NCBI GenBank assembly: GCA_009619095.1 | Contig: WJOT01000045.1 | Location: forward strand, 1-55,643 | DNA from: Clostridia bacterium | GTDB lineage: Bacteria; UBA6262; WVXT01 | Direction: 5' to 3' | Length of the DNA: 55,643 nt | Shown: positions 17,801 through 38,800 of the stretch, one piece after another | How the letters are laid out: each line of letters starts with the position of its first letter | How positions within the stretch are numbered: the first letter of the stretch is position 1 | Notes under the pieces: generated by a model | The model's database searches: none | Told to the model about the DNA's origin: nothing | What the model saw: the letters and a program-made list of their open reading frames with translations, nothing else | Made by a program: the position numbers and the translations under genes

Positions 17801-17835
17801 TCAGATTTTACCACCCATCTCCTGTCAATCCACAC
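11788..17835 (-). CDS. Continuation of giant A: membrane segments, PGI domain, start of second PGI-like domain
   Basis: The 2015-codon ORF opens at an internal GTG inside duplicated DNA with no ribosome-binding site, so the start is almost certainly artificial. Order: HEGKH zincin segment (about 30-35), an unrecognised beta-rich region, membrane helices (about 420-580), then a phosphoglucose-isomerase domain. The PGI motifs are GIGGQSFGN (about 665), SKSGITDET (about 723), RFSERSASGD (about 843), TESLGKDG (about 925) and QPYVEIGK (about 1035), with a further GTTGQH at about 1225. A helical region and three or four membrane helices (12050-12590) follow, then the beginning of a second PGI-like domain. 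PGI interconverts glucose-6-P and fructose-6-P; the key motifs look intact here. It fuses in frame to gene A when one 1919-bp copy is removed. Confidence 0.8.
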   Translation of the reverse strand: MWIDRRWVVKSDSARINRLRKLLLPIILAHEGKHLKRWQIALSEKLQSLPAFFRIPLQILFTPILEIPAYFIMPIKFYLNKVLSPAISALGGADRRDLTPIIDDDGFVWRVDSRGTAVGVNETRGVRKVIGKHGNIIEITSHKPGHPRMVKRVTLQNIKTNDEIILSSTPTEISKNLTFNFFSIRVNGIPLQCEDAGLKVFLSNDEYVIKDISAGESSGIGIGMTMANWVASHALRNDVSIIYGPDSRSHSLFHIMKSITKKPKVKGKDRWEELKKVDVYEQFGPLTVALKKGGKVEVEVSGGVVKKCKESPSFEGKSITIAEDGKTTMDGTVVGRLTYFDKLVMLRGAPDPINIVKEPSGAITRYKLKTQKITPSQPQKGRVDGTSPQLVASFWGKRFKEHPKKTAFRDAPLGENAILVLPAFLSLLVGSFIFGIPISLVLAGAWVGAASGILAFVYHKEVFERGKTEPRPATSVEKFNIFLHFLGMGMGSLLLATVIMHGLSSFELLQPGQEGFTARVCIFIMAALSGYLASAFYHSVVNIIQWVRGKPLLVGTRSSLFLGIGKIINKLPLFIYLRRIKGVVNLKGMKGKEKITKKRWREFISSRTFRNALDLNRQLVAEDRIGFESKAGGIFGDYAMKERKRIQEHIRHLKEDLGIKVLIHCGIGGQSFGNRALVESVGTEEGIEIIFLENLGYDYRQIFEEIIKDKGYKPHQIAVHVSSKSGITDETLINFLQTACRQLILRLSKEYYGNYRPAIRLDEMLRKKKDITKVHLEDLRLSEEEKKLLRESLERIILTTTVKRDGMRLENFVYDLATCNLSKEVLGNDEGIFLAHIPENIQGRFSERSASGDVTSCFAGRDIEKINQGAKEVLPVYKSDNTIINSAQKAGAELHLLNPDYIVVAFQASNMVASGSSLLQKFTESLGKDGCAALVIPCIGQKMLNKFASASWPGKVAFILVNVERDSKGKLDPLYMSSEKHPYFVYNQKNLSEEEDARRLQFFDTLIKWYGLFNAGEITADIHSEEYNRRNWQTQPYVEIGKRILTDKAGKLSREEKALQKRYRRMLKRVAKGPAHDLRAIFDKDNNRLTRKEIERLLPDEQLKTETPQPKKPITDKEFLSVLDEILKRRRKLKNVHSITEAKKIDEEVFELFEKIKDYGRGEQPEEIENVAKFLAKAIVVNLKNNNLIPLPYPYSPQEEVEVLGLWFKYILKPGGIPREDEVGTTGQHAVNQFLADGKKVGFSILIDEVTALSKIKRREIPVVNYGLANNYLVDLYPDEIRRLYLESWFEAFNELKRSCLVLRLKDFTTEHGRIQAFRLFGRVNELVEEMVERAGLHKRGKEGRPEEERAGKGARDERTSPFEEIDIDEIIERYRLLVNKISDRSKDTEGVYNRAYLIVLTVLAAYLAEQRGELTEELRKQFREGLLADLEKTQRDEPEKIDKALETLHKINMHTDNRKKSVANGLCKMVELAARKAFKEDYADVKLTTSGPSKNSLLRKYHRVAVSVLGEKLARKQFSRKTIQLAYFVLEAYYWDEKSVRERELVQKAQQKTLQIQNLLIALKNTNRQDIAEAKKILTDEIYIKIETKEKDSIVDRLWEMLDLAYQGKDPTQALLLSKDFEKWGPVNRRDRRKVAIDIIAEEFSTDKEMLVYLIEEMERPSFKGKVEDANKPKLYLQLRRLKYILDRIGARNRLPNKFPKKNKIGGLSTLNEALERIRLFDQEETTQTPGKSPEDSKRSKWREKMEEYRKRKLGRSVLPLVLVGALVAGTLLSIRDSIMGPISDLGASIGQPSKLSRFILLCVLLMGLPVLIVSAIKRVLNWWANIGKVDSEKTLSKKTDTKDSDESKKRPSRRLWSLLFGGFVISLIINSDVFGAVGDIIRNGPQARWGSTFEIPFGLGLWGLFICAVTGVGVWAIYREVGLATVGLMGEERVTLPKALSLDIVQRALAPLSGRGLEPVAAIAQQKQERIEGRMGWLGLEEEKLSKEEIKKTYMDGGSFLRAESRDYLDISY
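14100..15900 (-). other. Phosphoglucose isomerase (SIS-fold) domain
   Basis: It carries GIGG (15815-15846), SKSGITDET (15641-15675), RFSERSASG (15279-15310), ESLGKDG (15035-15070), QPYVEIGK (14711-14735) and TGQH (14131-14168), the set of motifs used by PGI. TGQH comes after QPYVEIGK, which differs from E. coli PGI order. It is embedded in a membrane-protein context instead of being a free cytosolic enzyme. Confidence 0.75.
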
Positions 17836-17838
17836 TGT
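15920..17838. repeat. Tandem direct repeat copy 1 (1919 bp)
   Basis: The block appears identical to 17839-19757 at a constant offset of 1919 in every line compared, with one shared T at the junction. The length is not a multiple of three. It covers the HEGKH segment, the beta-rich region, membrane helices and the very start of the PGI domain. Confidence 0.95.
17554..17584. repeat. Palindromic repeat read in frame (copy in first tandem unit)
   Basis: GTCC and GGGAC ends flank an internal CCGCC-TAA-GGCGG palindrome. It is translated as SPAISALGGADRRD. It is a short dispersed element of the GGCGGGA type, sitting between a membrane-proximal segment and a beta-rich domain. Confidence 0.65.
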
Positions 17839-20800
17839 GCATAATCACCAAAAATGCCTCCTGCTTTACTCTCAAATCCAATTCTGTCTTCAGCCACAAG
17901 TTGACGATTTAAGTCTAAAGCATTCCTAAAGGTTCGGCTTGATATAAATTCTCTCCAACGCTTCTTGGTTATCTTCTCTTTGCCTTTCATTCCTTTTAAA
18001 TTAACTACTCCTTTAATTCTTCTCAAATAAATAAATAATGGTAGCTTATTAATTATTTTACCAATCCCAAGGAAAAGACTGCTACGCGTCCCCACCAAAA
18101 GGGGTTTGCCGCGCACCCATTGAATGATATTGACTACGCTATGATAAAAGGCGCTTGCCAGGTAACCTGATAGGGCGGCCATGATGAATATACAGACCCG
18201 AGCAGTAAACCCTTCCTGCCCTGGCTGTAAAAGTTCAAAAGAAGACAACCCGTGCATAATTACTGTGGCGAGCAACAGCGAACCCATTCCCATCCCCAAG
18301 AAATGTAAAAAGATATTGAATTTCTCCACAGATGTTGCTGGCCGTGGCTCGGTCTTTCCCCTTTCAAACACCTCCTTATGGTATACAAAAGCAAGTATGC
18401 CTGAGGCAGCCCCAACCCAGGCTCCTGCCAGGACAAGCGAAATGGGAATACCGAATATAAAGGAACCTACTAACAGAGACAAGAAAGCGGGCAGAACAAG
18501 AATGGCGTTTTCACCCAAAGGCGCGTCACGAAAGGCGGTCTTTTTGGGATGCTCTTTGAATCTCTTCCCCCAAAAGCTCGCTACCAACTGTGGAGATGTG
18601 CCATCGACTCGGCCCTTTTGGGGTTGGGATGGTGTAATCTTTTGAGTTTTGAGTTTATATCTTGTTATAGCACCAGAAGGTTCCTTGACTATATTAATAG
18701 GGTCAGGTGCGCCTCTTAACATTACAAGCTTGTCAAAGTAAGTTAATCGACCGACCACAGTACCATCCATTGTAGTCTTTCCATCTTCCGCGATAGTAAT
18801 AGACTTCCCTTCGAACGATGGACTCTCCTTGCATTTTTTCACCACACCTCCACTCACTTCCACTTCCACTTTTCCACCTTTCTTCAGTGCCACTGTCAAG
18901 GGGCCAAATTGTTCATATACATCGACTTTTTTGAGTTCTTCCCACCTATCTTTACCCTTAACCTTCGGTTTTTTAGTTATAGACTTCATAATATGGAATA
19001 GAGAGTGAGATCTAGAGTCAGGTCCATATATTATTGATACATCGTTCCTTAACGCATGGGAAGCAACCCAATTTGCCATTGTCATTCCGATGCCTATGCC
19101 TGAAGATTCACCTGCGCTAATATCTTTAATCACATATTCGTCATTGGAGAGAAAAACCTTAAGTCCTGCATCTTCGCATTGAAGGGGGATACCATTTACA
19201 CGAATACTAAAGAAATTAAAAGTCAGATTTTTGGAAATCTCTGTGGGTGTCGAGGAAAGTATGATCTCGTCGTTGGTTTTGATATTCTGGAGCGTCACGC
19301 GCTTGACCATCCTTGGATGACCAGGTTTATGCGAAGTGATTTCGATTATATTGCCGTGTTTGCCTATTACTTTCCGAACCCCACGAGTTTCATTAACTCC
19401 CACAGCAGTTCCCCTGCTGTCAACTCTCCATACGAAACCATCATCATCAATAATTGGTGTCAGGTCTCGCCTGTCCGCCCCGCCTAAGGCGGATATGGCG
19501 GGACTTAGAACTTTGTTAAGATAGAACTTTATGGGCATTATGAAGTAGGCAGGGATTTCAAGGATGGGGGTGAATAATATCTGGAGGGGAATCCGAAAGA
19601 AGGCAGGGAGGGATTGGAGTTTTTCAGATAAAGCAATCTGCCATCGTTTAAGATGCTTGCCTTCATGAGCAAGGATAATGGGTAGGAGGAGTTTTCTCAA
19701 ACGATTAATTCGTGCTGAATCAGATTTTACCACCCATCTCCTGTCAATCCACACTGTATTATTCGCATGGTCTACTGTCGCTGGTTCCCACCACTTCAAA
19801 TGAGTACCATCATCATATTTAACTTCATATCCTTCCTTTACGGCTCTTTTATACAAGTCCGATCTTTTAACAATCGTATCCAATTCTGAATCCAATTCTT
19901 TCCCTTTTATACGTAAAACAAGTAAGTGGGTAATTAATGCCAGTAGGAATGGGACATTACATAATATCACGGCAACAATAGGAACAGCTAAACTCCACCC
20001 GCTTCCAATATAAGGTATCCATATATGTTTTATCACCTCCACCCCTAACCAAACAACAAGTCCTATCGCTGTCAATAATCCAAAAACTGAAGTCTTTTGT
20101 TTGCCTTTTGAATCATCTTTTGGTTTTTCTTCCTTATCTCCCACAGCCAATTTTTCTTCTACAATCTCCACGAAGGTCTTTTCTGTCCTTTGCGCTTCCT
20201 TAGTTATCTCTTTTATAGCTTTCTCTTCATCCCCATCAAAAAATCTCTCTACTACTTTAGCGAATGCCTCACTTATAATCATATATGCATAATCTCTAAG
20301 TGTCTGACGAGCAACACCAAAGGTTCTATTATTAAAGTCTGTGTATTTTCGCCGAAACGACGCCTCCCACCCTTCATAATGATTTATACCTCCTTTAACA
20401 CCCACAAAAGCCAACGGTTGACCTTCTCGACTCATTCCATCCATAGCCTGGTCTCTTCTTCCTCTAACTGCATGAGCCATATACACATCCTTCTTCCACC
20501 CCCTTATCCTTGCATTCGATTGACCTTTCATAAGAATAACATCACAGTTTTTTAATATAGTTGCTAAATTCTTACTCATCCTTGCCGGGTCTATTCCTTG
20601 AATTTGTGGACCGTTTTTAAAGAGGATAAACCTTCTTGGGGTTCTCAATCTTCTAAAGATTCTGAAAAGTTTTTTATCCTGTGTTCTTCTAGAATCTTCT
20701 TCTAAAATATCTTCTACATCTTTCCACGAAAGATGGCTTAAATACTGTCCATTCTTAGGTACAAAATATATCTTTAAATTTGGATTAATCTCTTCCATTG

Positions 20801-23800
20801 TTTCCGAAAGTTTTAAATCTACAAGACCTGCAACATTTCCCTCTGTAAGATAAACAAGTGTCTTTTGAGGTTTATCTTTCAAATATTTATTGTAAAAATC
20901 TTCTATAAATTCATCCCCAAAAAGTCTTAAAGTAGTTTCGCCTTTCTCAAAGTTATTTATTATATCCTTAATATGTGATTGCAATTGGGGATATATCATT
21001 TTATAGGGAAAGAGCCATACATTTAGCCGAGCTCCCCGTTGAATGACATCTACCCTGTCCATCAATATAGCTAATTTAAGCCAATGTTTAAACCTTTCTA
21101 AATCACTTACAGGTGTATATCTCATTTTTTCATCCTCTCTCCTCAGAAATTCAGCAACTGTTTCCTGACATGATTTGTTTCTATAAATAAGAGGATTTTC
21201 ACGGAGGTCGTCGGGAATATATACTCTACTTCGGGCTAACAATTTAAAAAGCTTTTCAGCTACTAAGGTTGCCTGAGAAGGGGTAAGGCTTCTCCAGAAA
21301 TAATCACCCGATGCCAATTTGTACTCTTGCAGCATTCTTAATGTATCTCTCAATTCTTTCTCCAAGACTTTTAGGTCTGGATTTACTATTCTAACCTTTA
21401 TTTCATTCAAAAATAAATCTACGACCCCGGCTTCTATCTCCTCATTAACCTCTTCATAAGCTGATAACCCTCTCATCCCTTGGTCAAATAGAGTCTTTAA
21501 TGGGAACACACCTGCAGGCGTATTCTTTCCTTCTCGGAAGATTTCTGAAACCACCTCATCATCCGCCACATCTTTCGGCGTCGGTATAAGAAATTTCATT
21601 ATCGCTTCATCCTGCTTTTCTGGACCATAATTAGTAATATCTATAAACCCCTTTCTTTTTAAAAAGTCTATAAATCTTTGGCGAGCTGGTCTTCTTTTTC
21701 TCTCCGTTTCAACAGAAACTTCATTTATCCTATTTTTTACCTCTGTTTTGGTGGCATCATCCATCAAGATTGGCCTAAGGGAATTAGAATATTCTGTTGG
21801 GTGTTTATTTAAATCTTTCCCGAGCCAATCGAAATCAACAAACTGTACTTGAGCAGGGCTTATGTCCTTTATACTTATATTAGATTCTTTTAACCTTTCC
21901 TTAAGTCTATCTATTTTAGCCTCCTCTTCTGTTAAAAAATATGTATAAACTGTGACCAACTCCCAATTCTCCATGCGAGAAACAGTCAACCCTAAACTTT
22001 CTTTTAAGTCATTTATCATACTATCTATCTTTCCCTTCTTTTGTATTGGAACAGGGGAAATTGTATAGGCATAAATAATATCATCTTCCCTGACAACAAC
22101 GAAATCTTCTGGCAATCTTTCTTGTAATTTCTTTTCTAAAGATTTAATCCTATCTTTAGTCTTAAATCTATACATTAAGGCATAATTTTTATATCCGTTC
22201 TCTTCACCAACTATTCTAAGTCTACCAACATCTATCTGTAAATCTAATCGTTCACTGACTTCACGAAAAGCAGCCTCCTGGGGGTCTTCCGGAAATTCTT
22301 TTATACTACCATCTTCACTCATTCTTCGTACCAATCCTAAATGACCAGCAGCAACGGTCCATCTATTTGGGGAAAGAGCCCTATAAGGGTTCCTCTTAAC
22401 AAGAAGAACCTTCCCCTGTCTGTTGCATAAAACTACCCTTATACTTTTATGCAAAAGACCCTTCTCGTGTGCGTCATCTTTAGTAACCCCTTCTATATGT
22501 CTTCCTTTTTTATCATAAATTGGAATTTTTTGTCTTTCTTTTATTATTTCATGGATAGGATAGAAACTTACTTTACCCTTTAGTCCTTTCCTTATATATT
22601 CTTGAGTCGTGGGAGTTAGTTCTTCATGGCTTCTAACAGCTTTGTACCTCTCAACACCGCACTGAGCATACAATATGTGTGGTGTAATTTCTTTACCTAT
22701 TGCCTGCTCGAACACCTCTGAGGTAATATCTTCAGAACAAGTTTCTAACTGAATTACAGGAGTTATTATCTTGTTCCCCCTTTCATCTACTTCAACGGCG
22801 TTCTTTTCTACAAAATAAACAGGCAATCTATCTGTAATATGTTTTACTTTTTTTACTAATTTATCTTGAGGTAGATTTAATAATTCCTCTTTTGTTATAT
22901 CAAAGAGGTTAAGGAATTTCTCTATAGAAATCCAGTAAGACATCATATTATGTGGATATTTCGCTATTTCTTCAGGAGACTGATTTTTAAATTTGTCTGA
23001 GAAAGCAGGACTTCCGGCCATTCGCAACTCCCCATCATAATCTAAGAGCATACCACCAGGCTGGCCCAAATTATCCACAACTTCAGCTACAATAGCCTTA
23101 TTTGACTTTTCCAGCAATCCTATATAAAGAGGGTCAATGGTATCGAGCACATTACTTACTGTCCCTACCTTTATATATTCCACCCCATCTTCTAATATCT
23201 CCTTAAGTACTCCACTTGTAATTAAATAAGTAAATACATCAAAATGTCCGGTAGGGTTATAATTTTCTATTGGAGCGCTTTTTGCATGGAATAAAGAAAG
23301 AACTGGTATTAATTTGCTATTACAAACTGGACAGTTTACCTTCCCTTTATTATACTCTTCTTGTGAGACCTTTAATTTTTTATGCCTAGGACAGGTGTAG
23401 TGAAGAGATAAACGTCTTGTTATTCTCTGCATATAATAATAAACCCGCCCTTCCACTCCAAAATTACTATTTATGTTCATAAAATCTTTTGTCATCTTCG
23501 ATGTTGGAGCACTAACCATAAGACCAGTTGGGATATCAATTTCATGCTCTTCTGATACCTTTTTTGTATTAGCATTTTTTAATTCTATAAAAGACCGTTC
23601 CCTACCCTGCATTCTTAATAAATTAGCTAACACTTTGGGCAAAAATGGTATTTCCCATCTTGTACTTTTACCTCCAGTAGCTAACAGCCGAAATAATTTG
23701 CTCTTTCTACCCGCACCCTTCATCTTTTGGATGCCTATCTTTCTAAGTTCTTCTTTATCTTCATCAGTCAGATTCTCTCGAACATCGATGTAATTCTGCT

Positions 23801-26800
23801 CGTTCAGTTCATCAAGTGCTACATATCCTATGGATTTCTTTGGCGGTTTAATCTTGCTATCGTCGAGCTGAAAGGTTTCTTTTGTTAGTTCGTCTTTCTT
23901 AATCTTTTTATATATTTTAACAAACCACTTAACATCAAAGAATTCTTTTACATTTTCTTTTTCTTCTTCACTCAATCCTTCGAGTGGACACACCTCTTTT
24001 ATTTTTTGTTTGCGATAATCTTTAATGAATTTTATCGGCATTATGCCATAAGCAGGGATTTCGTATAAGTAAAGAGTAGAGAGTAGAGGGTAGAGAGTGG
24101 CGAATAAAGAGTGGTGAGTAGAGAGTAGAAAGATGCTTAAGTGTATACCTTCATGGGCAAGGATAATGGGTAGGAGGAGTTTTCTCAAACGATTAATTCG
24201 TGCTGAATCAGATTTTACCACCCATCTCCTGTCAATCCACACTGTATTATTCGCATGGTCTACTGTCGCTGGTTCCCACCACTTCAAATGAGTACCATCA
24301 TCATATTTAACTTCATATCCTTCCTTTACGGCTCTTTTATACAAGTCCGATCTTTTAACAATCGTATCCAATTCTGAATCCAATTCTTTCCCTTTTATAC
24401 GTAAAACAAGTAAGTGGGTAATTAATGCCAGTAGGAATGGGACATTACATAATATCACGGCAACAATAGGAACAGCTAAACTCCACCCGCTTCCAATATA
24501 AGGTATCCATATATGTTTTATCACCTCCACCCCTAACCAAACAACAAGTCCTATCGCTGTCAATAATCCAAAAACTGAAGTCTTTTGTTTGCCTTTTGAA
24601 TCATCTTTTGGTTTTTCTTCCTTATCTCCCACAGCCAATTTTTCTTCTACAACCTGGACGAAAGTCTTTCCTGTCCTTTGCGCTTCCTTAGTTATCTTTT
24701 CTATAGCCTTCTCTTCATCCCCATCAAAAAATCTCTCTACTACTTTAGAGAATGCCTCACTTATAATCATATATGCATATTCTCTAAGTGTCTGACGAGC
24801 AACACCAAAGGTTCTATCAATGGCTGGGTCTTCGAATTTCTTCCAGAACGAAGCCTCTCCATTATAATAATGAGGTATACCCGCTTTGACACCTACAAAA
24901 ATGGGTGGGTTACGCGCCCAACCTACTCCATCCATAGATTGGTCTCCTCTCCTATTAACCACATGAGCCATATACATCGGCTTCTTCCATCCCCTTATCC
25001 TTGCATTCGACTGACCTTTCATTAAAATAACATCACACTTTATTAATACCTTTGCCAAACTATCACTCATCCTTGCTGGGTCTATCCCTTGAATCTCTGG
25101 ACCTTTCCTAACAAGGATAAACCTCTTTTGTTGTCCAAACTTCCTCAACTTTCTGAAAATCATTTTTTCGGGCGGCTGCGTACGGTCATGCTGCAAAATA
25201 ATTTCTACATCCCTCCATGATAGGTCGTTCAGACACTGCCCATTCTTTGGGACAAAATATATGGTTAAATTTGGATTCATCTCCAGCATTGCCTCAGCGA
25301 GTTCTAAATCTGCAACACCTTCACCGTTATTATTTGTTAGGTAGACAAGCACCTTGCGAGGTCTGCCTTTTAAATACTCATTGTAGAATTCTTCTCTGAA
25401 AGTGGGTCCAAAAAGTCTAAAGGTATAATTGCCTTTCTTAAATTCATCTATAATCTCTCTAATATAATCCTCTGGATGTTTTAACAACCTCAAGCGAGAT
25501 TCCTTTTGAATAATATCTACCCTATTCATTATTGTGGCTAATTCAACCAAATATGTAAATCTTTCATATGGTTTCATCGACTTATATTTTTTACTTTTTA
25601 CCTCCTCTTGCAAAAATCCATAGACGATTAAATTACATAAACCATTTAAATGTCTAAGAGGATTTCTATAAAAGGCGTCCGCTATCGGTGAAGGCTTAAA
25701 CATCATTTGTGACAGCCTGAATAATTGTATGGTTACTAAAGTTGCCTGGCTTGGTGTAAGGGTTTCCCAGAAATACTCACCCGATGCCAATTTGTACTCC
25801 TGTAGCAGCTTTAACATATCCACCAGTTCTTTTTCTAAATAGTCTAATGCATGGCTTTCTCCTTTCTGCCGCCTTGTCTCTTCTAAGAAGAAATCAATAA
25901 CCCTGGCTTTCATTCCCTCTTTTATTTCTTCGTAAGCTAATAGACCTTCCATTCCTTGATCAAGTAGAGTCTTTAATGGAAACACACCAGCAGGTGTATT
26001 TTTACCATCGCGGAAAAGCTTAGCAACATCTTCGTCCTTCGCTTCCTTTATGCGCATTGGCATAAATTGGCTTAGTATCCTATCATCTTCAGGTTTTGGC
26101 AAGAATAACCTCATTATCTCACGATCTTGTTCTTCTGGACTTAATCCTGTAATGTTTATATTTACCCTTTTCTTTAGAAATTCTATGAATCTCTCACGAG
26201 CCGGTTTACTTACTCTTTCTGTTTCAGCAGAAACTTGCTTTGTCCTATCTCTTACTACTTTTTTAATAACATCATTTCCCAATACTAATTGAACTACATC
26301 GGTAAATTCTCCGGGATGCTTATTGTAACTCTTTTCCAGCCATTCAAAATCAACAAATTGTATTTGAGTGGGGTCTAAAGTCTTTTTGCGTATATCAGTC
26401 ATTCTTAATCTTTCGGAAAGGGTATTCAATTTAGCCTCTTCATCTTCTGTCAAAACATATGTATAAACTATTTTTAACTCCCGATTCCATGTGCAAAGAA
26501 CATTAACTTTTAAATCTACTTTTAACTCCTCTACTATCTTATCTATATGTGGCTTTAGGAGTTCTGACCAGAAAGATGCTATAGTATAAGCATAAACAAT
26601 ACCCCCCTCTTCGACAACAATAAATTCTTCTGGTAATTTCCTTTCTATTTTTTCTATTATCTCATCTAATAATGGGCCAGTTATCCCTTCGGTCTCAAAT
26701 CCATACATCAGGAGATAGTTTCTATATCCTTCCTTCTCACCAACTAATCTAAGTCTTTGAGAATCTATCTGCAGGTCTAATCTTTCATTTATTTCACGAA

Positions 26801-29800
26801 ATGCAGTATCTTTAGGTTCTTCCGGAAATTCTTCTATTTTTTCATCCTCTTCTTTAAATCTCTGTAGTAATATTGAATGACCAGAGGCATTGGTCCACCT
26901 ATTTGGGAATAGGGGCCGAAAAGGTGCTCTCCTGGTAAGAAGAACCTTGCCATCACTATTATATATGACTACAATAACGCTCTTATGTAGCTTTCCCTCC
27001 TTATGAACCTCTTCTTTAGGTAACCCCTCCTTAAATAATGGTTTCTCAAAAGGAGGCTCCGCATAAACCGGAATTCTTTGCCTTTCTTTTAATATTGTGA
27101 TTAAAGGATAGAAACTCAATTTCTTCTTCAGATTTTCCCTTATAAATTCTTGAGTAGTGGTGGTTTGTTCTTCGGGAGATTTAACAGCTTTATACCTGTT
27201 GACCCTACACTGGGCATATAACATATATGATGAAGCCTTTTTGCCAGTCGCCTTCTCAAATGCCTCTGAAGTAATATCTTCAGAGCAGTTCTCTAACTGA
27301 ATTACAGGGGTGATCTTTTTGCGGCCTTTCTCTTCTTCAATAGCATTCTTATCCACTAAATAAGAGGGTAATTTATCTGTGATACGTTTTACTCTATTCT
27401 CTATTTTCTCTTGAGATAGATTTAATAATTCCTCTTTTGTTATGTTAAAAAGATTGATGAACTTCTCTACAGAGATCCAGTAAGACAGCATATTATGTGG
27501 ATATTTTGCTAACTCTTGCAATCGCTGGTTCTTAAATTTATCTGAAAAAGCAGGGCTTCCAGCCATTCGTAATTCTCCGCCATAATCAAATAACATCCCA
27601 CCAGGCTGGCCAAAATTATCCACGACCTCAGCTACAATAGCCTTATTTGACTTTTCTAATAACCCTATATAGAGAGGGTCAAAGGTATCTAATACATTAC
27701 CCATTGTATCTATCTTTATATATTCCACTCCATTTTTTACAAACGCCCTGAGCACTCCACTAGCGATTAAATATGTAAACACATCAAAATGTCCAGTGGG
27801 ACTATAATTTTCTATTTTATCAGTTGTTGCTTTGAACAAAGAGAGAACTGGCATTAACTTCCTATTACAATGTGGGCAGATTACCTTACCTTTATTGTAA
27901 TCTCTTTGTGAAATCTTTACTTTTTTATGTCTGGGGCAGGTATAGTGACGAGATAAGCGCCTTGCTATTCTCTGCATATAGTAGTAAATTTTCCCTATCA
28001 GCCCAAAATTATTGCTTATATCCATAAAACGCTGTGTTACCTTTCCCGTCATAGGACTGACCATAAAGCAAGCCGGAATATCAATATCATAATCCTCTGA
28101 TACCTTTTTTGTATCAGCGAGTTTTAATTCTACGAAAGACCTTTCCCTATCCTCACCTGTCTTGGGGTCTTTCATTCTTAGCAACTTAATTAGACCTTTG
28201 GCCAAACCTGATATTCTCCATCTCGTACCTCTGCCGCCGCCGGTAAATACGCGCGCCAATTTGCTTTTTCTACCCTTACCTTTTATTTTCTTTATACCAA
28301 TCTTCCTAAGCTCTTCTTTATCTTCATCAGACAGATTCTCTTCAACATCGATATAGTTCTCCTCGCTTAGTTTATCAAGTGGTATATATCCTTCCTTCTT
28401 TTTTGGTGGTTTAATATTATCCTCATCAAGTTGGTAAGTTTCTTTTGTCAATCTACCTTTTTTAATCTTCCTATATATCTTAAGATACCACGGGCCATCA
28501 AAAGTTCTTCTTACCTCCTTTTTTTCCTCCTCCTTTAAACCTTCGAGTGGCCGCACCTCTTCTATTTTAGAGAGGAAATAATACTCTCCAATAATCTTCC
28601 CTGGCATCACAGCATATGCAATGATTTCATTAAGGAGGTAGTAAATAATCCCGACAAGACCTTCCCGCCCTGGTATCTGCAATCGGCTGATGTGCATCCC
28701 CTCAAGAGCAAGAATAATAGGAAAGATTAGTTTTCTTATCCCGGTAATAAACCAGTTGGATTTTACTAACCATCTACGATTAATAACCAAAATTCTTGCT
28801 TCAGGATAAATTTTTGCTATTCTAAATCTGCTCAACCATCTCTGGATCCTATTCCTCCCCCCGGGCTTAAAAAGTATAACCCTTCTAATCTTCTTATCTG
28901 TCTTAAACTCATCAAGAATATATTTCAAAGCTGGGTCGAGCTCTTTATCTTTTAAACTGATAAACGGAACAATAAAGAGGCTGATAAACAATGCCACCAG
29001 GTATGGCAATCCATATAATATTAGGGCAATAGCAGTGATAAATAAGCCCAACTCACCTCCAGTATGCGGTATACCTGTAAGCAGTATAATCAAGAAGCCC
29101 AACACAGAGGTCAAAAGCGTGGTTATCCCTAATCCAAGAATTGAGGTTTTTTGTTTGCCTGTACTAGTGTCTTCTCTTTTCCTCTTTCTTGACTCTGTTT
29201 TATCCTCATCGGCAGCTTCACCGGGTTTTGGAGGTTGCCCCTTCTTAACTTTTTTCTTAGGTCTTGCAGCTTTACTGACCTGAATCCTTAACTGTAATAA
29301 AAGTCGTGTAAGTGCCTCTCTTGCACGCTTTAATAATGACCGCAAACGGGCAAGCATTTCAACTGTATACTTTCTTGCTCTAACAAAACCTTGACTCGAA
29401 GCCTGTTTGACATTCCTGCGTGGCACCTCTCCTATTTGCTCTTCAGCCTCAACTGTGGGTGGTTCCTCTAATTCTGTTTCAGGTCCTTCTAATCGTTGCT
29501 CTGGTAATTGCCTAAGATTCTTCTTAATTTCAACTCGTGTCTCTGCTGCTTGACGATGGTATCCATCACCGATATTTTGGCGATGTTCTTCAAGGAGTTC
29601 CTTTAATTTTTCATAACGCTGCATCTCCGGAGAGGCAGAATCATCAGCATCAGGTTCCGGAGGAGGTATCCTAGCTATATCTGCACTGAACCTTCTGTGC
29701 TGCAAAATATCATATCCTGTTAGTATCATATCCCAAATTTTGTATACAATAAGGATTCCAATAACTATATAAACAAGCATCATAATAGCATTAGTTGCAG

Positions 29801-32800
29801 CTTGGTAAGAGTATACAGAAGTGTAGCTGCCTAAAGTAGATGCGATGATTCCAGGACCAGGCACAACAACAAAGAAAATGGTCCACATCAAGCCTAACCA
29901 GAACCCACGGCCAGTTTCTGACAGGGCACGGTTTATATATGAATCCCGTCTTTTTCCAGGAGACCAGTATCTATTAATTATCAATACACGGTAGAGCCAA
30001 GGAAAAATTCCAAAAACCAGGGTTAAATGAAGTGCAACATATAAGGCAGATGGTATCCCGCCAAAACCAAGGGCGCAAGTAATACTGGTGGCAACTCCAA
30101 AGCCTACACCTAATATACGAACAAAGGGATTCCCTACAGGTCCTAGACTCTTACCAAGTTTATTATTATAGGTAAAGGTTACTAGCATTGCCGAGATACC
30201 CAAGAGTATTGATGGATAGGTCATTATTATATTTATAAGGTCTAATCTATATGCTGCCCATAAATATCCACCAACTGTCAATATTCCAAGGAGAGTGATA
30301 AAAGAGTAGGATCTAAAGCGATAATCCCACAGCTGCCTTAAGGTTAATCTTATCTTCTCCATTAGAGGTCTATTCGCTAATCTTTGTCGGAAATCACTAT
30401 CAAGACCAAATAAAGATACTTGCTTCTCTTCATCAAGTCTTGCACCAGGCATTCTTAAGAAGAAAGGACTGACCCCAATAAATCCTTTAATTACATAAAT
30501 GGCATTTACCCAAATCTGAAAGCCAGAAAATCTTGCCACATCTTCAGGTCTCTCTTTGAGCCAGCGTCCAGAACCAACAATTGCTCCTGATGTGCGTATT
30601 CTCATTAATAATTTATGGAAAACCAGTATCTGGTTCATCAACAGACCCCAGAAAAAGAATATGACTTTTATACCTACAAAGGCGGTTAGTCCATACACAA
30701 TCATAAATGGTAATGTAATTATGCTAAGAAGGGCAAGGGGTGCTAAGACGAAGAAGTCTGCAATACCCATCCTTAGTTCACGAATAGACAGAGGAACATT
30801 ACCTAAGAAGAACTTCTTCTGGAGCACAGGATTCCACATCAATTGAATAAATCCGCTTGCCCACCTGGTAAGGGAGCCAAAAAACTGATGGAAGGTTGCT
30901 TCACGCATCTTTACAAAATGGACCTCGTTAGCCCCTGAGATAGGAACCAATCCTCGTAACATAGCATTTATACCTATACGCCAAATCTTGTCAATATCTT
31001 CACTAATCAAGTCTAAGCCATAAACACTAGTAGGCCTCTCTTTACCATCCCTTAGATAGGCCACAATTGCTTCATTAACATCATAATGTTGTGAGGAACC
31101 CCAGCCATAACCTCCCCATCCACCAAGCCATCCTTCTGTTCCTACTACAGAATATCCAAAAGATGTCTCCGAACTCTCTGTGGCACCTGCTGCTGGAGAG
31201 AGTTTTCCAGTAGCTGCTACTCGCCTTATTGGTTGATTTCCAGCAATTATTTTTTTACCACCTTCAGCAACCTCAATAAACTGAATCAAATTCTTCTTAA
31301 ACCGGTCTGCCCTACGAGTAATAGTGTTACGGTCAATGGTATATTCAGCGACAGTGCCTGGTAAAATGAATGGTTCAGCAGCTACTTCACAGCTCACCTT
31401 ATTTTTTGCTGCAGCATTATTGAAAATTACACGAGACTCTACATTTTCTCCTTTGCCTGTATATTGGTCCCAAAGCTCTACTGTCCTCTCCCTGATTCTA
31501 CGCTCAATCATATTATCTTGATGTCTATCTTCAGGTCTTGTTCCTGGATAGCCTGTGGAATTGTCCAAGATTAGTAACTGAACATTTCTCGCATCCTTTC
31601 CTAATTCCTTTGCCAATGAGACTAAGAAGATATGGGAATCATAGGAGAGAACACCGCCGGAACCACCTCCTGTTCGGCTAAAGATGTATTTGCGCAATAA
31701 GAATCCACCTCGAATCTGCAAATAATTATCTTCAGTTTCAGGTACATCTTCCAATTGCAAAACAGCACCTAATTGTTGTTGATTTTGTGGATCTTCCTCG
31801 AATTCACGAAGAGAATTCAATAAACTACGCACTATTTCTTCATTGTTAAGATTAATCCCCCTTCGTTCGTTACGGATCGTGACATAGTTAAGGCCTATAT
31901 CTCGAAGTTCTTGCTCAAGATTCATAATATCTAAGGTATAAGTTTCTTTCAGAAATTTCCAATCATTTACCAGGGCATTTACATTCGGAGGTTTAGCAGA
32001 TTCATAGGCCATATATTTAACCACGCACCTCTTTTTGATAAGTTTATCTTCATAACCGGACTTGGGTAGGATATTGAATATGGATAAGATGCTCTTTATA
32101 TAGCTCCAAATTAGTCTGGGTCCAATGTAGATAGAAAAGCCAGCTACAATCATTAAAAGTAGCATTACTCCCCAATGATTCAAAATAGTCATTGACACAA
32201 AATGGATACTTCCACCGATTAGCTGAATTAGAGGTAGTGTTCCTCCACCGACGAAACGTATATTAAACCATTGATAGACACTTAAACCAATTATTATTGA
32301 AATGTAGAGGTAGAGCGATTTCCAAACTATAAAGAAGAGGGTAGACCGTACCCGTTCCCCTGCTGAAGGAGTAAACCAATAACGAAGCGAAGTTCCTATT
32401 AAGGAATAACTGCTGATTAACCTTGTAACGAATTCTACTCCTATAACCACTAATAATGGATAGATCAGGATAGCAAAATCAAAGGTTAGGGCAGTGAATA
32501 CATGCCCTATTCCCAAAAATGTTAATCCAGCCCCTAATCCTCCCACAATCCGTCGTGCCCACATCGTCCGTCTCTCTCCGCCTCTAAATGTGGAAGCCAA
32601 TATATTAAGACTTATCCCGCCTATTATCCCTACCAGGACCCATCCCAAGTTTCCTGCAATCTGCGTCCCAAGGCTACCGAGTAATTGCACACCTTCCGGA
32701 GGAACCACATTATTCTCAATCAAACCATGTGCGGGTGTTAGAATCTTCTCTACTATCTGTGCATTTAAATCTACATGAAAGACGGCTATTCCAAGTAGGG

Positions 32801-35800
32801 CAATCATAACTGGAATCAATAACCTGCCAAAAACCAAAAGCAATGGGTGTCTAGTCCCTCCCATCTTTGGAATTGCCCAGTTACGTAAATTCTGCGGTGT
32901 TGTATTTTCCAATATTTCTGCTAATCTATTCTCAAAATCCTCATCATCAGGAATCCTTCTCAATTCTTCTACGCCTTCACCAATGTATTCATTAATGAGA
33001 TCCTTGATATGGTATCTTGGATTCGTGTAGAAAGGATAGTATTGTCTAAAATTAGCATGTCCTTCATCAACTGCACATTCAGCGTCGGGTATGGGATATG
33101 TCTTAGTGATTCTTCTAATCCAATAACGGATTCCTCTGGTTGACCCAAGACCTGTATAGGCTTCATTCTGATTCCTTAGCTCTTGAGCCAAGAATTCAAA
33201 CCAATCGCGAGTTGCCTCTTGTAGTCGTTCATTGTATCTCTCTCCTAATCTGTGACGCACGAGGGTGACAAGGATAGGCAGGCTGTTTAGTGCAAAACCA
33301 TCTAATGTATATGGGTTTACTGCTCCGCCATGCTGGAATGTGACTGGGATTGTAACGACTCTACTTTGTGGGTGATTTCCTTGTACACCAGGGATCGCAT
33401 TTAGCATAATCTCATTCTTAGCATTATAAACATCTTCTTCGTCAATATCTTTATAGGTTGGAATATTTCTTTGCCTGCGTCGTTTCAGTAAGAGACCAGA
33501 AAAATAATTGATGATTGGTGCTAAGATGAAAAGTGAGGCGAGGATAATCCATACCCAGAAGAGTGTAAGAGTCTCTTCTGGTTCTTCAACCTTTGATGTA
33601 GCCTCAACCGTTTCCTTAAGTTTTGCTTCTTTTCCCTTGAGTTTTGCTTTTTCTACTTCAGTAAGTTCTGCTTTTTCTTGTTCAGATGGAAATATAACTG
33701 GAAATGCATATGGCCCTTTCGATTGATCTGCGTATAAGAGGTATGATGTAGCTGTTGGAGAGACAGGCCAGGCTTCTCTATCTGAATGAGGGAGCACATT
33801 AAATCCTTGACCCGAATCCAAGCCTATCCTTGGATCAAAATCTTCTACTTCCCGCCCAATTACCGTAGGCAATAGATTATTTTGTAAATAAGTATTCAAA
33901 TGTGAAGCTGCCCAATTTTCTCCACCACTGTACTTAAGTAACTTAGTTAGTAAATAGAAATGTGCAGTTACTTCCCCAGAGATAGCATCTCCCCTGTCAA
34001 AAGGAAGGCTCCAGTCAAGACCCCATTTTCCATCCATAGTAACACCCGGTCTGGCTACATTATCAATTGCTTTCTGTAAGGTTTCCTTCTCTAATCCCAT
34101 TTCCCTTGCTGCTTCAAGGAACCAGAGCCAGTCCTCAGATGAATGTAATGGATGAGGTGCAAGGGCAGTTGTTTTACCAAAGACATCCTGAATCTCAATT
34201 ATTCCTCGAGGGACAAATCCTCTCTCTCGAAGGACTGGCAAGACATTTCCCTCTAACCATTTTTGTTGATTTTCTAACGCTGCCTTAACCATTTCTTTAA
34301 GCTCATTGTCTATTTCTCTATCCTTCAAAATATTATTCAAATGTTTCAACAATAGATATGCCTTTGCATTTGTAGAGGTTGGATAATACCTGGGCTTTGC
34401 CCACTTATTATCTTTTAACACAAGTGGTTCTTCTTCACAGAAGCCACCAATCTTTCCATTGCGAATATCCCGAAATTCTAATGCCTTTTCTAACAGATTC
34501 TTCCCAAATACCCAGTACTTAGCTGCCTCATCTGGGTCTTCTATGCTTAGGGCTAGCTGGAACGAAGCCATTGCTAAGGCAATCTGAGATTCTGCTGTGG
34601 GTTTTGCTTCCTCTGACTTTTCATATCTAGGATTATACTTTCTAGCTAGTTTTGTCTCGGCATTATAACTGCTAGCTACTGGATACATACCTCCCTGGGT
34701 TCTTTCATAGTAGAAGTCGATAATTAGTTTAGCAGCGCCTTTTTTCTTTGCTCTTAGAAACGCTGGGACTAATTCTGACTCTTTTACAGTATCAATATAG
34801 AGTTTTGAGAAGGTAAACGGAGATGTAGGAATCAAGCCATTTATTCTTAAACGTAAGAGTTCAGCTATGAATTTATCGTTATCAAATTTTATTTTTGCTT
34901 CTGGTATCCCTCTCCCTTCCCATGGTAGTGGCAGGTGCAAGAATTGCTCTATTGGAAAGATACCCTCCATTATTATCTTTTTCTGCTCAGAAGCTTCTTT
35001 GACAGGCTTTGCAAATTTGGAGGTATCTCCAATATAGCGGTCAGGGATATTCAACCTTCCCCTGAATATGAGAGTAGAAATTGCGTTGGAGATCCTATCT
35101 TTTAAATTCGTAAATACTGTTCTCTTCTCTCTTGCAGGATATATAGTATTGTATTCTGGACCATAGGCTATGGCTATGAGCGTACCATCGTATTCGAATA
35201 CATCAACACGAGGAGCATTTGGACCATTTACATAACCAAACAGGAATATCCTACCATTCTGCTTCTTAACCTCATTCAACTCCACAAATTCAAAGCTTGG
35301 AACACTAAATGAATATTGTGAATTCTCTGTAGCGGGATTTAAGACCCTTATATAGGAATCATATCTCCTCTTCTTCTCATCTCTTATCTCGAAGCCAACA
35401 AGGAATTTTCTTCCCTTGAGTATTATTATCCTTTTAACCTTATGGGGATGATTTCTAAGAATTCCTTTGATCTTCTCTGCTTCTACTTCAGAAATAACTT
35501 CTTTGGAGTTCCTTAATTTATTAAGAGCGGTAAGCTCTGCTTGACTCAAGCTCTCTAAATCGTCTAATAGCTCTATTGGTATATCTCCTCTGCTACCTCG
35601 TGTCTTAGTAACACCTACGCTTCTTGGATTGTCTCCAAAATCGAATGAGAGTTCTACCAATTTCCTTCCAAAACCATTAAACCTTGTCAGATTTACTCTA
35701 TTCTTTAATGAGTTCTGAGGACAAATTGTATATCCCTTTGCATATGAACTCCTCACCCATTCTGGATAAATTCTGTATATAGTCTCTTTACCATTCAAAT

Positions 35801-38800
35801 CCTGAATATTCATTACCTTCCTTCCCCAGATGTCAGCAATCATATAATAATCTGTCCAGGTAATCTGCATTCCTTCACCTATGGTTTTAGTCACTTCCAC
35901 AGGCTGGATAAGGGTATCATCTGTAATGCCTAATCTTTGAAGCTCTTCTTCTATATCTTTTCTCTTATCCTTTGGAATCTGGTTAAGAAACTGTTTGATT
36001 GTTTTACCTAATATTTCTTTCAATTCTTTGGGCGAGGATTTAGAGTCAGTTGTCCAAACAACCTTATCCTTATATTTGAGGATTGTGTTGGTTACCCTAT
36101 CTGGATTCTTAGGGTCATCATATTCCCTTATCTCTTCCCAGCCGTTCCACCTGGATTTATGTTCTCTTCCAAACCGGTCTAAGAATTTGGTTTTAACATT
36201 AAGTTGGTAGGGATAGGTAAATAGACTGTGAATAATAGGAGCGAGTTTTTTGCGGTTGTCCCTGTTCCCAATGACTTTGGTAACTACATCTTGAGGCAAG
36301 TAAGTTAAATCATCTGTCCATTCCACAATCGCATTGTCATTTTCATCGAACTTACCTTCAAACTTACCAATGCTATATGGAATGGTATAATCATTTGATT
36401 TTGAATCGTGGCCAAAAGCGATGCGATATCTTTCCTGATTTGTAATGGAATCACGAATGATTATAGTTGAAAGTGAATCTCTATCATTTAATTTTCCTTC
36501 ACGTTCTTCTATTGAATCACCGTATATATCTAACCATTGGGTAGTGATGTAAGGAATAAGTTCCTGGTATCTTGCATCTCTGGTTATATCCTCATTTCTA
36601 GAGAGGTTCTTCGCTAATTCTTCTAAATCACTGTAGGTTAAGCCTGCACCTATTATATCCTCACGAGTTATTCTTTGGACCTGGTCAACCTTTAAAGAAA
36701 GCCCTATACTGAGATAATGTTTCTTACCGGCTATCTTTATGAATTCTGTCCTCCCTATCTCTCTACCATATTTAGTCCAGTATACGTCTGATATCCTCCC
36801 TTTATTCTTTATCTTTATTACTTGGCCGTGTTCGTCATACCATTCTTTCCTCGTCCTGTCGTTATTTATAATATCTGTTATCTCAAACTTCGCTATTCTT
36901 CCTTCGTAATTAATAAATCTACCCACCTCTATAAGTATATTCCCTGCCCAGGTTTCCATCTGAGTTGATATTCCATACTTATTATAGAAGAGGGTTGTCT
37001 CCCTATTTCCGACTATTATCTTTATCAATTGTCCATGCTCATCATAGTGTTCTATTCTTTCTCTACGACCATTTATGAGGTCTGTTATCTTAAACTTCGC
37101 TATTCTACCTTCATAATCTATAAAGGTGCCATCTTTTATCTTTGTAGTTCCTACCCAAACTTCCATCCTTGTCGGTTTTCCATACTTATTGTAGAATAGT
37201 TTTGTTTCTCTATCTCCAACTATAATCTTTCTTAGCTGGCCGTGTTGGTCATAGCACTCTACCCTTGTCCTACCACCATTTACTTTATCTTCTATGGCAA
37301 ACTCTGCGAGTCCCTCATGATACCTTACAAAGAACCCTTCCTTTATCAATTCATATCCTCTTGTAGTCCTTACTTCTATCTTTATATTTGTGGGTTTACC
37401 ATATTCATTATAAGAAAGTCTCGTTTCCCTATCTCCAACCGTTATCTTCCTTAATTGGCCATATTCATCGTAGCATTCTACTCTCGTTCTACCTCCATTT
37501 TCCTTATCTTCTATCGCAAATTCAGCTAATCCATCATGATACCTTATGAAGAAGCCTTCTTTTATTGGATACCCTCCTACTCTTATCTCTATTCCTTTTG
37601 GCTTCCCGTATTCGTCATAATTAAGTATCGTTACTCTATTCCCAATCTTTATCTTCTTTAATTGTCCATATTCATCATATCCTTCAATCCTTGTTCTATT
37701 GTCATTTATCTTATCTGTTATCTTAAACCACGCTAATCCATCTCTATATTCAATAAATTCACCCATCTTTATCTCTACTTTCCCGACCTTTATCCTCATT
37801 ATCGTCGGTTCTCCATACTCTGTATAGTCTATTGTAGTTACCCTATCTCCAACCTTAATCTTTCTTAGCTGGCCATACTCATCATAAAATTCCATCCTTG
37901 TTCTATTGTTATTTATCTTATCTGTTACCTCAAACCTCGCTAACCCGTCTTTATATCCTTTAAATTCACCTTCTTTTATTACTTTATCTCCTACTCTTAT
38001 TACCATCCCTGTTGGTAATCCCTGCTCTGTATAGCCGATTATGGTTACTCTATTCCCAACATCAATCCTTCTCAGCTGGCCATATTCATCGTAATACTCT
38101 ACCCTCGTCCTGTTGTCGTTTATAATGTCTTTTGTCACAAACCGGGCTAATCCGTTTTCGTATTTCTCAAATGCACCTACTTTTATTTCTATGTCCCCTA
38201 CTTTTGTCACCATATCTGTTGGCAATCCATATTTATCATAATTGAGCATCGTTACCCTATTCCCAACTTTTATCTCTCTTAACTGCCCATATCTATCATA
38301 ACCTTCTATCCTCTTCCTGTTGGCGTTTATCTTATCTGTTACCTCAAACCTCGCTAACCCGTCTTTATATTCCTTAAATTCACCCACTTTTATTTCTATA
38401 TCTCCTACTTTTGTCTCCATACCTGTTGGCAATCCATAATCATCATAGTAGAGGTTTGTTACCCTATTCCCAACTATCATTTTCCTCAATTGTCCATATT
38501 CATCATAGTATTCTATCCTCTTCCTATTATTGTTGGTTATATCTGTAAACTCTATCTTTGCTAATCCATCCTCAAACCCTTTGAAGACCCCTCTATTAAT
38601 CAGTTTCTTCCCAACATATGTCTTTCTCCCCTTCTCCTTCCAATAATCATCATATTCTACCAGCGTAAATCTATTCCCTTTCTGCTCTAATACAACATTC
38701 CCGTATTGGTCTAACCATTTGGTTGTGAGATATGGGATGAGTTTATTGTAGCTTCTGTCTTTTGTAATGTCTTCATTTTGAGTGAGTCTATATGCCAATT

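Follow-up and report, generated by a model that had tools for sequence, protein, structure and literature searches.

The stretch of DNA analysed here, hereafter the window, is the whole of a 55,643-nucleotide contig (WJOT01000045.1; C31) of a 1.99-Mb genome that is 86% complete, and its minus strand carries a giant open reading frame (ORF) of 12,611 amino acids. We found that this giant ORF contains, in tandem, two copies of a module in which a transmembrane (TM) hairpin and an HExxH-like site are followed by a UGPase-type nucleotidyltransferase domain (UDPGP) with an inserted Zn-ribbon, a Nudix domain and an ARMT1/DUF89 domain. Catalytic residues of all three enzyme domains are lost in both copies, the copies have diverged under purifying selection, and the same domain types recur in other giant proteins. 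The reading that we favour, and which in our judgement has an even chance of being right, is that the module is a membrane-tethered, cytosol-facing pseudo-enzyme block within a giant carbohydrate polyenzyme.

The two copies adjoin each other, share the same domain order and are 58% identical across 1,544 aligned columns (70% in the UDPGP part and 50% in the Nudix part), in agreement with an earlier note on this DNA, which had described two full tandem copies from the sequence alone. Each copy was scored separately against the curated Pfam cut-offs of 22 bits for UDPGP, 25 for ARMT1-like and 21.1 for NUDIX. Copies 1 and 2 reached 64.1 and 66.8 bits for UDPGP (PF01704), 64.1 and 41.8 bits for ARMT1-like (PF01937) and 22.0 and 26.8 bits for NUDIX (PF00293), the last narrowly over its cut-off, which bears out the UGPase-like, Nudix-like and DUF89-like families named in that note. 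Profile searches of the PDB matched the UDPGP part to human UGPase (4.7e-11), the DUF89 part to PH1575-type proteins (2.5e-26; 2g8l and 2ffj), with a query profile that included a canonical stand-alone protein, and the Nudix part weakly to IPP isomerase. The Zn-ribbon-like insert gave weak matches to Pfam HMBD and Zn_Ribbon, under the cut-off. The two Nudix domains of the giant are the only Nudix matches of the source genome at E<=0.001, and the sister genome (G002) has none.

The membrane hairpin that had been noticed at the start of the module was found in both copies by hydropathy. The hairpins carry lysine and arginine (K/R) before, within and after the loop in the patterns 6-0-3, 5-1-3 and 5-1-3, an asymmetry which, under the positive-inside rule, would place the enzyme domains in the cytosol, so the module is predicted to face the cytoplasmic side of the membrane. 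The entry segment, made up of hairpin and HExxH site, is present a third time, as had been reported, and we found another, diverged copy in the neighbouring ORF3. Furthermore, 496 bp are identical between the copy-2 entry and the third entry (19669-20164 = 24157-24652), and an entry-segment fragment at 17841-17599 forms part of an exact 1,919-bp tandem repeat. Copy 1 has lost HExxH; the motif is present in copy 2, in the third entry and in ORF3. For the HExxH segment no Pfam peptidase family scored over its cut-off, and no such entry segment of hairpin and HExxH turned up in the other giants that were sampled.

Residue losses and selection

In the UGPase of A. nidulans, Lys135, His228 and Lys403 contact the phosphates, Asp258 binds Mg and Asn256 binds the sugar (PMC10470519). 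When aligned with UGPases, both UDPGP copies were found to keep the equivalents of Lys135 and His228, and at the position of Lys403 copy 1 has Lys and copy 2 has Arg. The sugar-binding Asn256 equivalent is replaced by Thr in both copies, and the Mg-binding Asp258 equivalent by Gly in copy 1 and by Ser in copy 2. With eukaryotic-type UGPase (PF01704) the module thus shares the nucleotide-binding (NB) loop GGxGT, the Lys135 and His228 equivalents and the GxEYI core, and it is unlike that enzyme in these Asp258 and Asn256 replacements, in its Zn-ribbon insert and in sitting within a giant. Two Asp residues are essential in DUF89 enzymes (D623 and D659 of PANK4; PMC9352595); this pair reads Asn/Asp in copy 1 and Glu/His in copy 2, and both residues are kept in the ORF3 domain and in the stand-alone ARMT1 of the genome. 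The DUF89/ARMT1-like damage-control phosphatases PANK4 and PH1575 share with the module a family-level match and the KGQxN motif; unlike them, the module has the altered Asp pair, KGQSN for KGQGN and a longer N-terminal part. A complete Nudix box is GX5EX7REUXEEXGU, of which the REuxEE part reads REINER in copy 1 and REVSER in copy 2. The Nudix domains keep the core with RExxE of IPP isomerase-like Nudix proteins (PF00293) and, unlike canonical members, have Arg for the last Glu of the box, the Gly absent through replacement and an insertion within the box.

Because catalytic residues are lost in UDPGP, Nudix and DUF89, catalysis is doubtful in both copies. The decay forms a mosaic, in which copy 1 is without HExxH and has the better DUF89 domain and GGxGT loop, and copy 2 keeps HExxH and is the worse in the other two. 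The suggestion that one copy is active and the other a scaffold was rejected, since both copies carry losses. AlphaFold2, run on the UDPGP pair with two sequences, returned a pLDDT (predicted local distance difference test) of 35, and the model was not used for fold searches.

The ratio of nonsynonymous to synonymous substitution rates (dN/dS) between the copies was 0.23 for UDPGP, 0.50 for Nudix, 0.41 for the ARMT1 core and ~0.35 overall by the Nei-Gojobori method, figures that are rough with dS (~0.87) near saturation. As dN/dS is well under 1, the copies are not freely drifting, and this purifying selection suggests a retained, probably non-catalytic function. The 58% identity, together with the synonymous divergence, also means that the modules are not an assembly duplicate.

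Enzyme domains in other giant proteins

A profile of the module, searched against 98 genomes, matched only the source contig, and a scan of genome contigs with the module alignment gave no relative. The order UDPGP, Nudix and ARMT1 was likewise searched for elsewhere, and the exact unit was found only on the source contig. No UDPGP was found in five other genomes of the phylum or in 14 control genomes. Among Omnitrophota it was present in 58 of 384 genomes, with 53 of the 63 matches in frames >1,000 aa and 14 in frames >5,000 aa, lengths that are limited by contig ends; the 10-kb flanks that we took cover part of each giant. The largest UDPGP-bearing open frame has 57,756 aa (G627:C2; L179, L186). 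A frame of 30,185 aa carries a series that begins with UDPGP and continues with NAD-epimerase, starch synthase GT5 and, last, ARMT1; another, of 17,444 aa, carries UDPGP, GT5 and a Nudix domain (26.5 and 19.9 bits in two runs; cut-off 21.1); and a third, of 11,858 aa, combines PGM-C, CofD, UDPGP, KDPG aldolase, transaldolase and PGI. Among the other UDPGPs borne by giants, 18 have a motif that could be read by eye; 13 of these keep the Mg-binding Asp and 2 have the QDTN form. One intact relative, the UDPGP of L166, retains both GHFD and the Asp.

Giant-borne ARMT1 domains fell on one side of a branch with 95/97 support, and stand-alone ARMT1s on the other. Both module copies were nearest to the ARMT1 of the 30,185-aa giant, on long branches whose inner order is unsure, and the tree rejected a recent capture of the ARMT1 copies from the cell's own ARMT1 gene. 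The source genome also encodes separate housekeeping nucleoside triphosphate (NTP)-transferases and the intact stand-alone ARMT1.

The giant and ORF3 begin with the same N-terminal domain (motif I[QK]DAH...VEG...GGFHxxGI), which is complete in ORF3 and present in the giant from residue 204 on. A profile search found it in 14 of 386 genomes, in frames of up to 24,620 aa, and 107 relatives from a scan of named genomes, chosen by one motif, are mostly from Omnitrophota, with others from Auribacter, Theseobacter, the bacterium of Bugula neritina from the Planctomycetes-Verrucomicrobia-Chlamydiae (PVC) group and R3-B46. Downstream of it, in 39 proteins, we observed PGM/PMM (14), NTP-transferase (4), ARMT1 (3), SecA-like DEAD (3), CofD (2) and transaldolase (2) domains and single GPI, PGK, PFK, UDPGP and other domains. 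The predicted model of the domain had a pLDDT of 91 and VIA Z values of 8.6-8.8 to EreC and ChaN, which do not clearly exceed those of unrelated rows, and Foldseek gave no significant match with it (E ~0.7-0.8); its likeness to the EreC/ChaN fold is suggestive, not proof. Taken across the PVC-type giants (Omnitrophota, Auribacterota and R3-B46), many of them with this same domain, we found embedded UDPGP, PGM, PGI, epimerase, starch synthase, CofD, ARMT1 and Nudix domains. The earlier idea that a giant protein houses sugar-nucleotide enzymes therefore fits the giant family, because such enzymes in giants are real and recur across many related members. A 3,214-aa protein with the N-terminal domain (L178:751-10392) contains an enolase and an ELFV dehydrogenase with their C-terminal parts ahead of their N-terminal parts.

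Competing readings of the module

Under the pseudo-enzyme reading, a block of UGPase-type (with its Zn-ribbon insert), Nudix and DUF89/ARMT1 domains would have been duplicated in tandem in this lineage, from domain types that in related giants look mostly like working enzymes beside PGM, PGI, epimerase and starch-synthase domains. With catalytic metal ligands gone and some phosphate- and nucleotide-contacting residues kept, the copies are predicted to be nucleotide-sugar or phosphometabolite-binding sensor or scaffold domains, which would hold the polyprotein together at the inner membrane and might also have a part in its regulation. Several points weigh against this. Ligand binding and a regulatory or scaffold role are predictions from sequence; the mapping of UDPGP residues comes from sequence alignment, and the topology from a simple hydropathy scan and a K/R count. 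Residual or altered catalysis is possible, and in copy 1 of DUF89 the Asn may still serve as a metal ligand. Also, the material is a single contig of a metagenome-assembled genome (MAG) with one certain oddity, the exact 1,919-bp repeat.

The serious rival is neutral accretion, according to which a giant gene captures and duplicates parts of metabolic genes, the active sites of these parts degenerate afterwards, and the parts have no dedicated function. The tandem copies, the exact 1,919-bp duplication, the in-frame repeat elements, the degenerate active sites and another giant with reversed enolase and glutamate-dehydrogenase-type halves all speak for it. However, dN/dS is well under 1, 37.8 kb are free of stop codons, giant-borne ARMT1 forms its own lineage and not a set of recent captures, and the catalytic Asp is kept in most of the other giant UDPGPs checked, so that we regard neutral accretion as improbable.

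The earlier note had proposed a sugar-nucleotide supply or quality-control cassette, in which UGPase makes a nucleoside diphosphate sugar and Nudix and DUF89 clear damaged products. The family assignments are correct, the metal site of the ORF3 ARMT1 is intact, and other giants keep catalytic residues and carry UDPGP beside GT5, epimerase, ARMT1 and Nudix. But in the module both copies are without the Mg-binding Asp and the sugar-binding Asn of UGPase, the final Glu of the Nudix box and one or both of the essential DUF89 Asp residues, and the genome has independent housekeeping NTP-transferases and an intact ARMT1. An active cassette is thus unlikely here.

A third possibility is that the giant is a surface protein of predation or host interaction whose domains act on metabolites of prey or host. 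The published accounts, as far as their sections on giants go, describe Omnitrophota giants as predatory surface proteins (PMC10066038, PMC12419801, PMC12057145), mostly as adhesion or predation proteins with few annotated domains (PMC10066038), and some giants carry glycosidase-like, LysM and peptidoglycan-binding domains. The present giant resembles the Omnitrophota/PVC giants of Seymour et al. 2023 (PMC10066038) and of the West-Roberts et al. 2023 preprint (via PMC12057145), so far as these are described there, in being a single giant ORF with many TM helices and few annotated domains. Unlike those adhesins and predation coats, as they are portrayed in the same sections, it carries a cargo of sugar-phosphate and nucleotide-sugar enzymes, and its module is predicted to face the cytosol. 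Polysaccharide biosynthesis enzymes, MPTase peptidases and TM segments are mentioned in gigantic Omnitrophota proteins with Skillet-clade Lipocone domains (PMC12419801, eLife 2025); in the part of that article that treats them they are read as predation proteins with toxin domains, and a UDPGP-Nudix-ARMT1 module is not mentioned there. In the portions of the literature covered, we found no report of a UDPGP-Nudix-DUF89 fusion or of systematic enzyme cargo, the main giant-gene preprint lying outside that search. Against a predatory role, the K/R pattern puts the module on the cytoplasmic side, its families are those of cytosolic metabolic enzymes that depend on NTP or metal, and a Pfam search detected no delivery or toxin domain in it; we consider this role rather remote. 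Lastly, an assembly artefact is very improbable: the contig is from a MAG and has exact repeats of 1,919 and 496 bp, but the modules are only 58% identical with dS ~0.87, suspicion is confined to the 1,919-bp repeat, and the sister genome has the same N- and C-terminal parts.

Few gene products are as poorly understood as giants whose chains run to tens of thousands of residues, and these are usually read as adhesins or predation weapons. The shared N-terminal domain and the recurrent, often catalytically complete sugar enzymes offer a testable alternative, that at least one giant family is metabolic; in Omnitrophota, UDPGP occurs mostly within large or giant frames. In this lineage, a duplicated module with catalytic residues lost in both copies under selection would represent a route to pseudo-enzyme scaffolds. 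We suggest, tentatively, that PVC bacteria string central carbohydrate metabolism (PGI, PGM, UGPase, epimerase, glycogen-type synthase, damage-control phosphatase and Nudix) into one-chain, membrane-tethered assembly lines, some modules of which have turned into pseudo-enzyme regulators.

Gene layout of the window and minor features

The large genes of the contig lie on the minus strand throughout (Table 1), and downstream of the giant ORF are ORFs of 2,015 aa, 628 aa and at least 3,031 aa (ORF3). For a frame of 12,611 codons to stay open by chance at 40% GC, the natural-log probability is ~ -822.

Table 1. Coordinates of the features described, as positions in the window
Feature	Position	Strand	Remark
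Giant ORF	17808..55643	-	12,611 aa; 5' end beyond contig edge
N-terminal domain at start of giant	54393..55643	-	first ~204 aa off contig
Module copy 1	24609..29171	-	giant aa 8825-10345
TM hairpin, copy 1	28968..29141	-	K/R 6 before, 0 loop, 3 after; hydropathy
Degenerate metallopeptidase-like site LEGMH, copy 1	28692..28706	-	by eye
UDPGP domain, copy 1	27069..28334	-	NB loop GGGRGTR kept, Mg-Asp to Gly; Pfam 64.1 bits
Zn-ribbon-like insert CxxH...CxxC in UDPGP, copy 1	27867..27938	-	sequence
Nudix-like domain, copy 1	26730..26990	-	box ...REINERLDL
ARMT1/DUF89-like core, copy 1	24999..25604	-	DN..D to NN..D
Module copy 2	20109..24608	-	giant aa 10346-11845
TM hairpin, copy 2	24420..24575	-	K/R 5-1-3; hydropathy
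Intact HExxH (HEGIH), copy 2, then EIPAY	24141..24155	-	by eye
UDPGP domain, copy 2	22521..23771	-	NB loop GGKSTR, Mg-Asp to Ser; Pfam 66.8 bits
Zn-ribbon-like insert in UDPGP, copy 2	23322..23393	-	sequence
Nudix-like domain, copy 2	22200..22454	-	box ...REVSERLDL
ARMT1/DUF89-like core, copy 2	20508..20942	-	DN..D to EG..H
Third entry segment (TM hairpin and HEGKH)	19518..20120	-	8.1e-86
PGI-like ORF, 628 aa	9957..11843	-	one ORF with preceding part in sister genome
ORF3 N-terminal signal/TM segment and EreA/ChaN-like domain	7180..9093	-	giant-protein family marker
ORF3 entry segment (hairpin and HEGLH), diverged	5803..6387	-	upstream of ORF3 ARMT1 domain; 1.0e-52
Third ARMT1-like domain, in ORF3	3997..4866	-	metal-site residues intact (DNFGE...ND)

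The exact tandem repeat of 1,919 bp (100%) occupies 15919-17837 and 17838-19756, its length is not a multiple of 3, and the end of the giant ORF at 17808 falls just beyond the repeat junction. Omitting one unit fuses the giant and the 2,015-aa ORF into one frame of ~13,978 aa, and the repeat reflects a very recent duplication or else a fault of the assembly; repeats were mapped by DNA comparison in pieces. The 2,015-aa and 628-aa ORFs overlap at 11788-11843 in different frames. Because their counterpart in the sister genome is a single ORF (L023 7630-19095), a frameshift or sequencing error is likely there, and the 628-aa PGI-like ORF is probably the C-terminal end of the giant. If neither the 1,919-bp repeat nor the frame change near 11.8 kb is real, the gene would form a single ORF of ~14.8 kaa. 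In the giant-type ORF of the sister genome, two CofD domains in tandem and one adenosine-deaminase domain come before the same C-terminal end. ORF3 (3,031 aa) repeats the scheme of the giant, with its own N-terminal domain, a hairpin with HExxH and an ARMT1 domain.

In the giant itself, the hydropathy scan gave ~38 TM candidates, and SecA-like DEAD, preprotein-binding and helicase-C domains were noticed at aa 1350-2230 (~48950-51600); SecA-type domains also occur in three other giants. At 36806-38585 the giant has ~207-bp tandem repeats (YDEYGQL..GNRVT..YGxPT), which we take to resemble WG/YD-type surface repeats, and at 45543-46745 a 627-bp tandem duplication (~80%) of a coiled-coil-like stretch. 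The N-terminal domain contains short in-frame repeat-like elements (SPLPSGERVRMRG; VIARSEMTKQSLSVDEIATLPSVARND; NVGATLRGRP) that differ between paralogues; in ORF3 they lie at ~8185-8225 and 7500-7595, and the corresponding stretches of L023/L024 have them too. The first 64 residues of this domain are present once more just upstream, in a truncated ORF (L023:5530-6630).

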